Of a stretch of 37,254 bases of DNA, positions 11,692 to 31,203 are shown piece by piece. Source of the stretch: Verrucomicrobiaceae bacterium (lineage in GTDB: Bacteria; Verrucomicrobiota; Verrucomicrobiia; Verrucomicrobiales; V1-33); the NCBI GenBank assembly GCA_027486335.1, contig JAIXPK010000187.1, forward strand, positions 1 through 37,254, given 5' to 3'. The number at the start of each line of letters is the position of its first letter. Position 1 is the stretch's first letter. A model generated the notes under the pieces. It did no database searches. It was not told the origin of the DNA and saw nothing but the letters and a program-made list of their open reading frames with translations. A program made the translations under genes and the position numbers.

Positions 11692-12300
11692 ATGCCCCGA
11701 CCAGCCCGATACAGTGATCCCCGCCGTCAGCCGAGCCCGAGCCAGCAGGGGCCGAGGCGGCACAAGCATACTGATTACACGAAGGAGGCGGCGAGCGGGA
11801 CGGAGGAGGATTTGTTTGCGCTGCTGGAGACGGTGACGAATCCGCTGCTGCTGATCCTTGATCAGGTGACGGACCCGCACAATCTGGGGGCGTGTCTGCG
11901 GACGGCGAATGCGGCCGGGGTGGCGGCGGTGATTGCGCCGAAGGATCATTCGGCGGCGCTGACGGAGACGGTGCGGCACATTGCGTGCGGGGCGGCGGAG
12001 GCGACGCCGTTCATTCAGGTGACGAATCTGGCGCGGGTGATGGAGAAGCTGAAGGAACGGGGCATCTGGATCACGGGGACGGCGGAGGAGGCGACGAAGA
12101 GCCTTTACGAGAGTGATTTCACAGGGCCGTGCGCGATTGTGGCTGGTGCGGAGGGAGCGGGGATGCGACGATTGACGGGGGAGAAGTGTGATTTTCTGGT
12201 GAGGATCCCGATGCGCGGGACGGTGCCGTGTCTGAATGTGTCGGTGGCGGCGGGTGTGTGTCTGTTTGAGGCGGTGAGGCAAAGAGAAGTGAGAAGTTAG
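11692..12300 (+). CDS. rlmB: SpoU/TrmH-family rRNA 2'-O-methyltransferase (RlmB-like)
   Basis: A 202-residue SPOUT methyltransferase with the three family motifs: [17 protein letters not shown] (motif 1, with the RNA-contacting Asn and Arg), [11 protein letters not shown] (motif 2) and [17 protein letters not shown] (motif 3, trefoil-knot SAM pocket). RlmB methylates G2251 in 23S rRNA; assignment to RlmB rather than another TrmH branch rests on these motifs and is moderately sure. The usual N-terminal L30e-like RNA-binding domain is replaced by about 45 basic, proline-rich residues, so the protein is short. Motif 3 reads CLN where SLN is typical. The gene follows the exported methyltransferase by 20 bases. 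Its last codons run into a GAAG-rich direct repeat that continues past the stop. Confidence 0.88.
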
Positions 12301-12317
12301 AAGTTAGAAGTGAGAAG
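12281..12317 (+). repeat. Degenerate GAGAAGT/TAGAAGT direct repeat over the rlmB stop codon
   Basis: Five or so tandem, imperfect copies of a 7-base GAGAAGT or TAGAAGT unit run from inside the last codons of the methyltransferase across its TAG stop into the gene-free block. The final Arg-Glu-Val-Arg-Ser of the protein is therefore encoded by repeat sequence. Confidence 0.6.
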
Positions 12318-12335
12318 GGCTGGTTGGGAGGGGTG

Positions 12336-12541
12336 GGTTGCCGCCCTTGCCGGGGCGGGGTTTTATTGTTGTGTTAGACCGGTGGCTGACGCCACCGGCT
12401 AATTTCCGTTAAGCCTTCGGCTTGGAGAGGGCGAGTTGTGAGGGGGCGATCTCTTGCGCCCTTTCAGGGCTTGGGGTCAATCGTTCTGATGACCTGGGGC
12501 GTTGCCCCAGTCTATCACCTTTCGTCCCTTTGGGACTGGAG
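12336..12541 (+). repeat. Hairpin-string block, copy A (two three-hairpin units)
   Basis: No gene lies between 12301 and 12838. Copy A has two units of the same layout. Unit 1: stem-loops at 12341-12358, 12379-12398 and 12411-12423. Unit 2: stem-loops at 12458-12470, 12494-12510 and 12524-12536. In each unit the first and second hairpins are about 20-23 bases apart, with TTG-rich linkers such as ATTGTTGTGTTAGA or CAATCGTTCTGATGA, and the second and third are 12-13 bases apart, with linkers CTAATTTCCGTT or TCTATCACCTTTC. Stem sequences differ completely between units while spacing and linker style are kept. Similar hairpin-rich intergenic repeats are familiar to me from Planctomycetes and Verrucomicrobia genomes, but I cannot name a described family. 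Short ORFs here are shadows of the repeats. Confidence 0.8.
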
Positions 12542-12557
12542 GTGTGTTCGGGGGAGG

Positions 12558-12812
12558 CGGGTTGCCGCCCCTGCCGGGGCGGTGTGTTATGTTTGTGTTA
12601 GACCGGTGGCTGACGTCACCGGCTAAGTTCCGTTAAGCCTTCGGCTTGGTTGACGCGGGGGAGGAGGGCGTGTTGGGAGGGCGTGCCGCGCGCACTCCGT
12701 GCGCCCCGAGAGCTGTGATGCTCCCGGCAGTCCAGAGCCTGCGGCGCTCTGGTTCGGAGATGACCTGGGGCGTTGCCCCAGTCTATCACTTTTCGTCCCT
12801 TTGGGACTGGAG
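12558..12812 (+). repeat. Hairpin-string block, copy B (diverged copy of the 12336-12541 block)
   Basis: This is a second copy of block A in the same order. Unit 3 has hairpins at 12565-12582, 12603-12622 and 12635-12647 and is nearly identical to unit 1. Unit 4 has hairpins at 12732-12752, 12765-12781 and 12795-12807; its second and third hairpins are identical to those of unit 2, but its first hairpin is different, and an extra hairpin (12690-12704) lies between the units. Compared with unit 1, stem position 12616 is T where unit 1 has C, and position 12571 is C where unit 1 has T. Both changes keep pairing as G-T versus G-C when read on the + strand. The block ends about 27 bases before the converging kinase gene and might also end its transcription. 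Confidence 0.8.
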
Positions 12813-12838: not shown

Positions 12839-15382
12839 TTAGGGGGCGGTGATGGTGATTTCGCGGATGTTCATGAGGGGTTGGCCGGGGGTGGAGCGGA
12901 GGGGTTCGATCCAGAGGCGCCATGTGCCGGGTTTGGGGATGGTGAAGGAGCCGGCGTCGATGGCTTCGAATTGTTCATTGGCGCCGGTGACGCGGACATT
13001 GCGTTCGGTGGCGGAGGTGCCGAGGGCGATGCGGCAGGAGCGGTCGCCTTTCTGGCCGCTGCTCTGGAGGATGGAGACGGAGAATTTGCCTGCTTTGGGG
13101 ATGGTGATGTCCCATGCGAGGCGGGTGGAGGGCTGGAGCCAGCCGGAGATGTAGCGGACGGTGGGGGAGTGGAAGGCGTCCTTGGTGTTGCTGACGATGA
13201 CGGCGGCGGCGGCGGGGAGGACGTTGGGGCCGGATTGGATGGTGGTGATGCGTTTGATGTTGTCGGCGATGGCGGCCTGGGCAGGGGCGGCGGCGTCGCT
13301 GGGGATGGAGGCGACGAGGGCGGCGGCTTCCGGGGAGGCTAGGGAGGCGGCGGCGAGGCAGAAGTCGGTAGCGGCTTTTGGTGAGGAAGCGGTGGCTGGG
13401 ACGAGCCGGGCGAGGGAGGCGGCCGCGGCGGGGGCGTCGAGGTCCTGGAGACGGGCGAGGAGACGTGCGGCGGGGCCGGTGAGGGAATCGTGGTCACCGG
13501 TGAGGGTGGCGGCGAGGACGGCGCTGGCGAGATTGGCGTCGGCGGCGGGCCATGCGTCGAGCTGGTTGAAGGCGTCGCGGAGACGGTCGCCGCCGGCTTT
13601 GATTTCGTCGATGAGGACATCGGAGGCGGAGGCGTCGCCGGTGGCGGCGAGGAGCCGGAGGAGGTCGGGGCGGAAGGCTGGGTCGCAGGAAGGCAGGAGG
13701 GGAGCGATCGTGCGGACGCGGGTGGCTGGGTCGGCGGAGCGGGCGAGGATGGCGGAGACGCCGTTGGCGATATTGCGTCGGGACTGGTCGTCTTTGGCGA
13801 TGGCGGCGGCCTTGACCATGGCGAGGGCTTCGGGGGCGTTGCCTGATTTGCCGAGGGCGTCGGCGGCGAGGTTGCGATCCTCGGGCGAGCCGGAGGCGAG
13901 GATTTCGAGGAGGGCGGCGTTGCCGGCCGGGGATGGGCGGTCGCCGGCGATTTCGGTGAGGACCGTGCGGGCGGCTCCTTTCGCGGTGGCGAGCTGGGTG
14001 CCGATGGCTTCGTTGATGTCGGGGCCTTTGAGACGGCCGAGGACGGCGGCGATTTTCGGGGTTTCGGGGGAGGCGGTTTCGCCGATCCACGAGACCAGTT
14101 CTGCGACGAGGGTGGCGTCGCCTTGGGGTTCATCCTGAGTGGCGAGCCGGGTGACGAGTTCGTCGTGGTCGGCGCGTGGGAGGATGGGGGTACGGGGTTT
14201 AAGGATGACCCATGTGAGGTAGGCGATGAGGGCGACGCCTGCGAGGATCCACCATTTGAGGGCGGCCTTGGGGTCTTTTGGGGTGGTGGGGCGGGACGGT
14301 TTGGAGGAGGTCGCGCGGGGAGCGGCGGTGGTGGTGGGAGGAGAGGCAGCGGCGACGGGGCGCGTGGCTGGTTTCGAGGCAGCGGGTTTCGCGGCGACGG
14401 GAGCTGCGGGTGTGGCGGTTGGGCGCGTGACGGCGGCTGGGGAGCGCGCGGGTTGGGATGGGTGGCGCTGGCCCGGGGCGGTACCGCGGCCGACGATGCG
14501 GACTGAGGCGGCTTTGGGGGGCGGAGGGGGAGGCGGAGCGGGTTCGGCGGGGAGCCCGGAGGCTTCGGCGAGGAAGAAATTGAGGGCGGTGCGCGCGTCG
14601 TGGGGGCGATCGTCCATGTTGCGGCTGACGAGCCACATGACCCAATCGGCCATCCAGCGGGGGACATCGCTGCGGAGGTCCTGGAGCGGGGTGACGGAGT
14701 GCTGGAGGTGGCTGACCATGACATCGACGGGGGAAGTGCCGTCGAAGGGGTGGCGCTGGGTGAGGATTTTGTAGAAGATGCAGCCGAGCGAGTACATGTC
14801 GGTGCGTGCGTCGAGCGGGCGGCGCTCGAATTGTTCCGGGGCCATGAACCAGATGGAGCCGAAGATGCCGTCGCCCTGGTCCTGAGTCTGGGGGACGGCG
14901 GATTTGGAGAACCGGGCGAGGCCGAAGTCGAGGATTTTGATCTGGAATTTGCCACTGGCGAGCCAGTTGACCATGAGGTTGCCTGGTTTGAGGTCGCGGT
15001 GGACGAGTCCGAGGGATTGGGCGGCGACCATGCCTTCGAGGACCTGGAGGACGACCTCGCGGAAGTCTGCGACGGTGAGTTTGCCGCGATCGCTGACCTG
15101 GTCGAGGGTTTCGCCTTTGAGGAGTTCCATGACGACGAAGGAGCCGGACTCGTTGCGGCCGACGTCGTAGATGGTGACGATGTTGGGGTGCTGGAGGGAG
15201 GAAAGGGTGCGGGCCTCGCGGATGAGATCGGCTTCGAGGTTGGCGGCGCTGATGGCGGAGTCTTCCGGTGGGCGGACCCGTTTGAGGGCGACCTCGCGGT
15301 CGAGCTGGGTATCGTGGGCGAGGTAGACGTCGCCGAGGCCGCCTTGGCCGATTTTTCCTTTCACTTGGTAGCGGTTGGTCAT
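12839..15382 (-). CDS. Transmembrane Ser/Thr protein kinase with an extracytoplasmic HEAT-like and sugar-binding-like region
   Basis: ATG 15382 gives an 847-residue protein starting at MTNRYQVKGKIGQGG; longer versions to 15679 would overlap the divergent HIT gene and read as basic shadow sequence. Residues 1-275 are a Hanks-type kinase: Gly loop GQGGLG (12-17), Lys34 in VALKRV, HRDLKPGN (catalytic Asp130), DFG (152-154), and an APEQF activation segment. Residues 277-375 are Pro/Ala-rich. A single helix follows (about 377-394). Beyond it lie alpha-helical, alanine-rich repeats resembling HEAT repeats (about 405-700) and a C-terminal beta-rich domain of about 130 residues, which looks like a galactose-binding or CBM-type sandwich. 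This arrangement suggests a receptor kinase sensing something outside the inner membrane. The outer-domain calls are weaker than the kinase call. No substrate gene is identified nearby. Confidence 0.88.
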   Translation of the reverse strand: MTNRYQVKGKIGQGGLGDVYLAHDTQLDREVALKRVRPPEDSAISAANLEADLIREARTLSSLQHPNIVTIYDVGRNESGSFVVMELLKGETLDQVSDRGKLTVADFREVVLQVLEGMVAAQSLGLVHRDLKPGNLMVNWLASGKFQIKILDFGLARFSKSAVPQTQDQGDGIFGSIWFMAPEQFERRPLDARTDMYSLGCIFYKILTQRHPFDGTSPVDVMVSHLQHSVTPLQDLRSDVPRWMADWVMWLVSRNMDDRPHDARTALNFFLAEASGLPAEPAPPPPPPPKAASVRIVGRGTAPGQRHPSQPARSPAAVTRPTATPAAPVAAKPAASKPATRPVAAASPPTTTAAPRATSSKPSRPTTPKDPKAALKWWILAGVALIAYLTWVILKPRTPILPRADHDELVTRLATQDEPQGDATLVAELVSWIGETASPETPKIAAVLGRLKGPDINEAIGTQLATAKGAARTVLTEIAGDRPSPAGNAALLEILASGSPEDRNLAADALGKSGNAPEALAMVKAAAIAKDDQSRRNIANGVSAILARSADPATRVRTIAPLLPSCDPAFRPDLLRLLAATGDASASDVLIDEIKAGGDRLRDAFNQLDAWPAADANLASAVLAATLTGDHDSLTGPAARLLARLQDLDAPAAAASLARLVPATASSPKAATDFCLAAASLASPEAAALVASIPSDAAAPAQAAIADNIKRITTIQSGPNVLPAAAAVIVSNTKDAFHSPTVRYISGWLQPSTRLAWDITIPKAGKFSVSILQSSGQKGDRSCRIALGTSATERNVRVTGANEQFEAIDAGSFTIPKPGTWRLWIEPLRSTPGQPLMNIREITITAP

Positions 15383-15502
15383 GCGGCGGAAGGGGGCAGC
15401 GCCGGGGTTGGGGAGAGGCGCGGAAATCGAGTTAAGGGAATTGCGGAGCGGCGGCAAATGGTTTCTCTGTGACGATTGGAAGAACCTGAACTGAAGAGAA
15501 CC

Positions 15503-15931
15503 ATGGCGACCTTGTTTACCCGAATTATTGGAGGAGAGATTCCCGGGCGATTTGTCTGGAAGGACGAGAAGTGTGTGGCGTTCATGACGATTGCGCCGAT
15601 TCGGCCTGGGCACACGCTGGTGGTGCCGAGGGAGGAAGTGGATCACTGGGTGGATGCGCCTGAGGAGCTGGCGGCGCATTTATTTGTGACGGCGCAGAAG
15701 GTGGGTCGGGGGATTGAGGCGGCGTTTCCGTGTACGAAGGTGGGGTTGATGTGTGCGGGGCTGGAGGTGCCACATTTGCATCTGCATCTGACGCCGATTG
15801 ATGAGATCGGGGACATGGATTTCGGGCGGCAGGACAGCCGGGCTGGGGCGGAGGCGCTGGATGCGGCGGCGGAGCGGTTGCGGGCGGCGCTGCGTGCGGC
15901 GGGGCACGGGGAATTTGTGCCGGAGGCGTGA
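15503..15931 (+). CDS. HIT (histidine triad) family nucleotide hydrolase
   Basis: A 142-residue protein with the histidine triad HLHLHL at residues 91-96 (His91, His93, His95), and the N-terminal block FTRIIGGEIPG and PIRPGHTLVVPR typical of HinT/Fhit-like enzymes. These hydrolyse nucleoside phosphoramidates or dinucleoside polyphosphates. ATG 15503 is preferred over the in-frame ATG-less extension to 15476 because MATLFTRII is the conserved family start. The gene is divergent from the kinase, with 120 bases between the two starts that must carry both promoters, and precedes queE by 12 bases, so the two are probably co-transcribed. Confidence 0.9.
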   Translation: MATLFTRIIGGEIPGRFVWKDEKCVAFMTIAPIRPGHTLVVPREEVDHWVDAPEELAAHLFVTAQKVGRGIEAAFPCTKVGLMCAGLEVPHLHLHLTPIDEIGDMDFGRQDSRAGAEALDAAAERLRAALRAAGHGEFVPEA

Positions 15932-30627: not shown

Positions 30628-30799
30628 CTGCCACGCCGAGCATGCAAGGGTGCATGGCTGCGCGGAACGAGCCAGCCAATGCCCCTGTGGTTGAACGAGG
30701 CTGGCAATAGCTGCGTGGCGGCCGTGGCGACCGGGGTCGATTGGTTGGTTGGGTTTGGGGACGCAGTCATGTTAGGTTTGGGGGTTTGTTGGGGTTTTA

Positions 30800-30863
30800 C
30801 CCAAGGTAGGCCTTCGTGCCTCAGGCCAACCTTGGGCTCTGGGACGCAATCCCGTTGGGATTG
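30800..30863 (+). repeat. Two-hairpin unit of the same layout as the 12.3-kb block
   Basis: A long hairpin (arms CCCAAGGT at 30800-30807 and ACCTTGGG at 30829-30836) is followed after 10 bases by a short hairpin (CAATCCC-GTT-GGGATTG, 30847-30863). Order and spacing match the second and third hairpins of the units at 12.3-12.8 kb, though the stem sequences are unrelated. Confidence 0.7.
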
Positions 30864-30959
30864 TGGGGGGCGTTGGCAGGAGGGCGAAGGTTGAGGCACA
30901 GGATGAGGCGGCGGGAGATGATGGTGTGCCTGGTGGGTTTGTCTCCAGGTTGTCCTCTC

Positions 30960-31053
30960 GCGCCCCGTTGGGGCGCAGGGGTTTACAATCGTGTGATCCC
31001 AGGGCCTCCGCGTTGCTGCGTCCCTGGGCTATGTTCTTTGGGCCCGTTAGGCC
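30960..31053 (+). repeat. Three-hairpin unit of the same layout as the 12.3-kb block
   Basis: First hairpin GCGCCCC-GTT-GGGGCGC (30960-30976), 21-base linker with TTTACAATCGTGTGAT, second hairpin CCCAGGG...CCCTGGG (30998-31028), 11-base linker CTATGTTCTTT, then a weak third hairpin GGCC-CGTTA-GGCC (31041-31053). Linker lengths and the CAATCGT and CTAT words match unit 2 at 12458-12536. Confidence 0.75.
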
Positions 31054-31110
31054 GGAATGGATGGGAGATGGTCTTGCGGTTCGTTGGGGCCGGATGGGAT
31101 GGGGCGGTTG

Positions 31111-31158
31111 GGGCAGATAGGGCGAATAGGGCGAATAGGACGGATGGGACGGATAGGA
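31111..31158 (+). repeat. 9-bp degenerate tandem repeat (GGGCGAATA / GGACGGATG type)
   Basis: At least four consecutive 9-base units: GGGCGAATA twice (31121-31138), GGACGGATG (31139-31147) and GGACGGATA (31148-31156), with weaker copies before. The period is three codons, so any frame across it reads as a tripeptide repeat. It looks like a minisatellite. Confidence 0.75.
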
Positions 31159-31203
31159 ATCAGTGAGTGGAGATGTGAGGATTGGTGGGGAGAGGGGCGA
31201 GTG

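Follow-up and report, generated by a model that had tools for sequence, protein, structure and literature searches.

Three-hairpin intergenic repeats of a Verrucomicrobiaceae bacterium as probable mobile DNA partners of subclass-1.2 Y1/HUH transposases

The window analyzed here, i.e., the whole 37,254-nt stretch of DNA from a Verrucomicrobiaceae bacterium, contains a four-unit hairpin block, onto which a SpoU rRNA methylase gene and a Ser/Thr protein kinase gene converge with their 3' ends, and two further units near 31 kb. All units in the window are on the + strand. The features are listed below, with the three hairpins of a unit referred to as H1, H2, and H3 respectively.

11692..12300, + strand: SpoU rRNA methylase gene, left neighbour (PF00588, E 1e-40)
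12338..12427, + strand: unit 1, family A, complete (covariance model 60.6 bits); H1 12341-12358, H2 core 12379-12398 with TTAG/CTAA foot 12374-12402, H3 12411-12423
12453..12540, + strand: unit 2, family B, complete (47.8 bits); H1 12458-12470, H2 12495-12509 then TCTATC, H3 12524-12536
12562..12651, + strand: unit 3, family A, complete (54.3 bits); H1 12564-12583, H2 12603-12622, CTAA, H3 12635-12647
about 12683..12742, + strand: type D dispersed repeat, unrelated to the units
12757..12811, + strand: unit 4, family B, truncated; H2 12765-12781 and H3 12795-12807 only
12839..15679, - strand: Ser/Thr protein kinase gene, right neighbour (PF00069, E 3e-47)
30798..30866, + strand: family C unit, truncated, without H1; H2 30800-30836, H3 30845-30865
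30957..31057, + strand: B-like unit, complete (42.8 bits); H1 30960-30976, H2 about 30998-31028, CTAT, H3 about 31041-31053

The covariance model was trained on nine units, all from other genomes, and gave five matches and no further unit in the 37,254-nt window at E<0.01; its match to unit 4 spans 12721-12811 on the + strand (28.3 bits). An earlier sequence-only reading of this DNA had described the block as four three-hairpin units of one layout. The hairpins do lie where that reading placed them and are not due to chance, as units 1-4 fold as single-stranded DNA with z = -5.2, -3.5, -4.8, and -3.7 respectively, and none of 200 dinucleotide shuffles folds equally well. Only three of these units are complete, though, and they are of two kinds, family A being represented by units 1 and 3 and family B by unit 2. 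The presumed hairpin 1 of unit 4 is actually the unrelated type D repeat, which forms a chimera with a B unit lacking H1. Two more examples had been proposed at 30.8-31.05 kb; the one at 30.96 kb is complete, whereas the one at 30.80 kb is a family C unit with H2 and H3 only (z = -2.4 and -4.9 respectively against dinucleotide shuffles, the 30.96 kb unit being less striking).

Other repeats are interspersed with the units. The type D repeat was considered as a part of the units and rejected, since 12 other near-identical copies, found at loci in this genome and in that of the sibling species, have no downstream hairpins. It has the sequence pattern GCGCACTCCGTGCGC...GAGAGCTGTGATTCTCC...CAGTCCAGAGCCTGCGGC, is present in many near-identical copies in both genomes, and had no transposase partner that we could find. 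Positions 30628-30711 match many sites in the sibling species (G096) and resemble a further dispersed repeat family. Degenerate short tandem repeats, with the motifs AGAAGT(T/G)(A/G)GA and GGGCGAATA/GGACGGATA, adjoin the unit blocks at 12285-12318 and 31097-31160.

The general plan of a unit is a short hairpin, 20-25 nt, a long hairpin with a TAG/CTA foot, 10-14 nt, and another short hairpin. This spacing is kept in relatives, where the H1-H2 gap is mostly 20-25 and the H2-H3 gap mostly 10-14. Of the linker words noted by the sequence-only reading, the one shared 3' of hairpin 2 is CTA, in which C, T, and A are conserved at 99, 98, and 89% respectively among 150 aligned units; this nearly invariant CTA corresponds to an NTAG 5' of the hairpin on the opposite strand. 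TAG is thus near invariant, while an exact GTAG is found in 27% of the 150 units, and the window units carry TTAG or ATAG. H1 and H3 resemble each other more within units (similarity 0.746) than between units (0.658; shuffle maximum 0.678). Units also follow one another in tandem, repeating about every 70-84 bp, at L081:3575-3689, L103:689-874, and L018:740-1000; in these arrays, hairpin 3 of one unit doubles as hairpin 1 of the next.

The view that the stems are free to change while remaining paired, as in a selected structure, is borne out by the 150 aligned units. In this alignment, 94.4% of the stem cells are paired and 654 cells are changed on both sides, vs. 166 in shuffles and at most 146 in slid controls; fitting these units to the structure of the model favours covariation, but a MAFFT alignment of nine sequences gives the same outcome. 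Among 2667 interior stem cells, 2613 are Watson-Crick pairs, 13 are G.T, and 26 are A.C. An RNA stem is expected to tolerate G-U and a DNA stem is not. Because the covariation shows no such wobble tolerance, it points to the stems being DNA structures rather than RNA, with the qualification that the tRNA control for wobble consisted of 10 tRNAs and is too small.

The motif is not undescribed, as had been supposed, because the last two hairpins of unit 1 correspond to Acido-Lenti-1 (RF01687), which matches 12379-12424 with 40.6 bits, above its gathering cut-off of 37. Unit 2, of family B, scores 31.3 bits, so that only family A reaches the threshold. Acido-Lenti-1 goes back to Weinberg et al. 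(2010, PMC2864571), who presented it as a probable RNA in Acidobacteria and Lentisphaerae, and it has since been proposed as a regulator of Tannerella protease genes (PMC13298647). Rfam lists it as a 46-nt family labelled 'Gene; sRNA' whose function is not known, and in the literature searched, the papers naming it give no mechanism.

A TnpA-like gene, which the sequence-only reading had suggested looking for, is indeed present: the genome encodes three intact Y1/HUH (Y1_Tnp) transposases, each in a single copy, with B and C sharing 40 and 44% identity with A. A unit lies beside each of them (beside A in contig C150, on both sides of B in C321, and beside C in C408), and because each tnpA adjoins its own unit family A, B, or C, the window holds repeats of all three tnpA types. 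The transposases contain the full catalytic set of DH[VL]H, Tyr, and Gln, and have profile matches to the IS608 and ISDra2 structures. A Y-x3-Q-x2-HH motif is present in all three and in 66 of 80 relatives. Together with DHuH, WQ, a length of about 148 aa, and the low copy number, this fits TnpA-Y1 subclass 1.2, to which we assign them by motif, length, and copy number. Subclass 1.2 has been described without REP or terminal hairpins and mostly from Cyanobacteria and Bacteroidetes (Quentin et al., 2018, PMC6006769).

Using the three transposase proteins, we searched genome contigs and obtained 80 loci in Verrucomicrobia, Planctomycetes, Acidobacteria, Lentisphaerae, Desulfuromonadales, Bacteroidetes, Ignavibacteria, and Sumerlaeota. 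A descriptor without sequence content, consisting of three stems and two gaps, scored at least 18 in 36 of the 80 regions upstream of tnpA; among distant windows, none of 979 antisense ones and 0.2% of the sense ones reached this score, and none of 400 shuffles did. With the covariance model, a unit was found within 160 bp of tnpA in 56 of 71 held-out loci, which represent several phyla. Common positions are 11 nt ahead of the tnpA start and 11 nt past its stop codon, and inverted unit pairs surround tnpA in 26 of these 71. In total, 122 of the 125 units at held-out loci are near tnpA, a 144-fold enrichment, and unit similarity is correlated with TnpA similarity (rho 0.48; reached in none of 500 permutations). 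The independent Rfam model gave 20 matches in 18 tnpA loci, nearly all of them within about 500 bp of tnpA. One inverted pair counts against the units being tnpA substrates: at L258:417-1079 (Adhaeretor mobilis), it surrounds, with tnpA-like spacing, a 95-aa ORF that does not encode this transposase and is a possible passenger gene. At C216:12195-12442 of our genome, a transposase remnant (the last 45 residues) lies about 25 bp from a unit and is apparently a decayed fourth cassette.

The two components also occur together across genomes. Among 96 genomes of the phylum, 12 contain both RF01687 matches and the transposase, 80 contain neither, one contains the transposase alone, and three contain RF01687 matches alone (Fisher p = 9e-12, which is nominal because genomes within one phylum are not independent). 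Presence of the transposase was defined by a profile score above 100 bits, with IS200 types separating at 50-71; in this set, genomes with only an IS200-type transposase (10-12 copies) have no RF01687 matches. The single occurrences are G014, G055, and G059 for RF01687 matches without a subclass-1.2 transposase, and G091 for the reverse. In the literature searched, which covered few subscription papers and supplements, we found no earlier report of an association between the units and a transposase.

The genome carries at least 126 A/B-type copies according to the covariance model, a lower bound because 150 of 1184 candidates were scored, and at least 81 copies of the family C H3 string. The units have a strict orientation. 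Among the 30 contigs that carry at least two units, 29 have them all pointing the same way, the exception being C321 with its inverted pair around transposase B; likewise, 24 of 26 close neighbouring pairs are direct and the two inverted ones are both in C321 around tnpA. Unit direction agrees with the sign of the GC skew in 53 of 53 contigs (mean skew +0.316 and -0.317; p = 2e-16), and the same is true of all 25 contigs with family C, whose copies were located by a string search rather than with the model. GC skew is very strong in this genome (mean absolute 0.318 over 73 contigs). Since the skew in the window is +0.38 over genes on the + strand and +0.36 over those on the - strand, it follows replication and not gene strand.

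In a complete genome (G083), all of the 17 strongest Acido-Lenti-1 matches follow the skew across two switch points: they are on the - strand from 0.28 to 2.24 Mb, on the + strand from 2.37 to 4.59 Mb, and on the - strand at 5.46 Mb, while the skew changes sign near 2.1-2.3 Mb and near 5.0 Mb. Two single 15-kb samples in which the skew is weak, at 1.53 and 3.70 Mb, carry the opposite sign, and weaker 33-base partial matches of mixed direction were excluded because it is a palindrome that defines their orientation. Skewed mutation could add to the pattern by eroding copies in the wrong orientation, although it would hardly give such agreement in the weakly skewed G083. The lagging-strand template is the strand from which IS200/IS605 transposases excise and into which they insert (PMC6006769), and an orientation lock is therefore what their substrates would be expected to look like.

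Comparison with the sibling species G096 shows flanks that are 95-96% identical up to the edges of the block at 12.3 kb, which is absent as a whole. The G096 site instead holds a shorter, different sequence without a unit, and because this sequence is its own, loss in G096 is possible too. Other unit sites are common to both species, and on two other contigs some sites are shared while others differ. The 30.8 kb site is not informative, as its two sides match different G096 contigs, and no target-site signature of the units was observed.

Several other explanations need to be weighed against this evidence. That transcripts of the units serve as small RNAs or as RNA sites for protein binding would agree with the RF01687 match and with the strongly conserved, covarying structure. 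We nevertheless consider a structured RNA, one of the candidates named by the sequence-only reading, very improbable: the interior stems show no preference for G.T over A.C, the copies adjoin a transposase and not a conserved operon, and their direction follows the replication strand, with the window units pointing one way between convergent genes. The absolute orientation and the high copy number would also suit polar marks for chromosome organization or replication (nucleoid, segregation, or pausing), spread or maintained by directional selection. Against such marks stand the tight linkage to tnpA and the joint presence and absence with it; several families of unrelated sequence occur per genome, different families lie side by side, and the units are missing at an orthologous site, all of which make this quite improbable.

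Intrinsic transcription terminators were another of the earlier candidates and have little in their favour beyond the position between convergent gene ends and a weak excess of terminator-like sites (four vs. 1.1 +/- 0.8 expected). T-rich tails are weak and located 3' of H1 or H2, not of H3, termination requires neither the three-part layout nor the CTA foot, and the tnpA linkage would be left without explanation; the chance that this is the right account is next to negligible. It is also extremely improbable that the units are simply the termini of an ordinary IS200/IS605 insertion sequence and that solo units are what deletions left behind. While the HMM matches to IS200 transposases and the inverted pairs around tnpA at held-out loci are in line with this, each divergent tnpA type is present in a single copy against more than 100 units, the Adhaeretor chromosome has three inverted-pair cassettes that have diverged and are not recent copies, and the genomes rich in IS200-type tnpA lack RF01687 matches.

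REP-like mobile repeats, also among the earlier candidates, thus find support here. We consider it very likely that the units are non-autonomous REP-like mobile DNA, and substrates of the subclass-1.2 Y1/HUH transposases that they flank. Acido-Lenti-1, which has the same H2, H3, and linker, is then most likely the H2-H3 part of these three-hairpin, transposase-linked DNA elements: what was modelled as a 46-nt small RNA lacks the H1 that the units add, and the units behave as a transposase-linked DNA repeat. A broader proposal is that a class 1 IS200-like transposase keeps several parallel directional three-hairpin families per genome across Verrucomicrobia, Planctomycetes, Acidobacteria, and others, with polar arrays perhaps serving the host as replication-direction marks; this is rather unlikely.

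With the units as transposase substrates, a possible mechanism is that they fold whenever replication exposes the lagging-strand template at the fork. TnpA would then bind the long hairpin, the TAG foot would act as the guide, and the tyrosine would cut, after which TnpA would move or copy the unit into nearby single-stranded DNA; insertion into nearby single-stranded DNA would produce same-direction clusters locked to the replication strand. Hairpin 2 together with the TAG foot would be the core site, and hairpins 1 and 3 accessory. Direct movement of the units, and binding and cutting by TnpA with TAG as the guide, are what we infer; E. coli-type REPs have, at the place of the NTAG, a GTAG that is needed for recognition and cleavage (PMC8266576). 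One observation counts against this mechanism, as the G-rich strand carries CTA, placing the TAG foot opposite the presumed lagging-strand template. The G-rich strand is usually the exposed lagging-strand template.

The system is similar to REP/BIME/REPIN sequences with their RAYT (TnpAREP, class 2), i.e., REPtrons, in its short intergenic palindromes with a TAG-type foot in more than 100 copies, and in having one single-copy Y1/HUH transposase per family, which is flanked by the repeat that is abundant elsewhere. A REP palindrome is 20-40 bp, however, whereas the units are about 90 bp with three hairpins; REPs have GTAG or GTGG 0-2 nt from the palindrome, instead of NTAG; RAYTs are of class 2 with Y-x3-NP, instead of Y-x3-Q-x2-HH; and BIMEs and REPINs are built on inverted pairs, whereas neighbouring units here are mostly direct. 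Because GTAG, the class 2 motif, and the inverted-pair organization are all lacking, the units are not REP/BIME, and their strict replication-strand orientation also sets them apart from REPtrons. TIRtrons, described by Di Nocera et al. (2013, PMC3733652), likewise have a Y1 transposase (TIRYT) between long inverted repeats that are also dispersed. Their transposases belong to class 2, namely to subclasses 2.1, 2.2, and 2.5 (PMC6006769), whereas the inverted units here accompany a subclass 1.2 motif and have three hairpins. The IS200/IS605 elements (IS608 and ISDra2) share, judging by sequence, the HUH fold family, as well as terminal hairpins, and the orientation of the units is fully consistent with their preference for the lagging-strand template. 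Their tnpA is multicopy; since ours is not, and solo units with three hairpins per end dominate, the system is not an insertion sequence. Compared to subclass 1.2 as described, our transposases share DH[VIL]H, WQ, Y-x3-Q-x2-HH, the length, and the low copy number, but have hairpin units on their flanks and occur chiefly in Verrucomicrobia and Planctomycetes, with others in Acidobacteria and elsewhere. The unit-transposase system would work like a REPtron or an IS200-type element but is a member of neither.

For the transposase subclass described as having no repeat, the units would supply a partner, and an orphan Rfam family annotated as a small RNA in many genomes gains a likely identity. The lock to the replication strand, furthermore, opens the question of how REP-like repeats spread to a direct test that needs no more than a single enzyme and its substrate.
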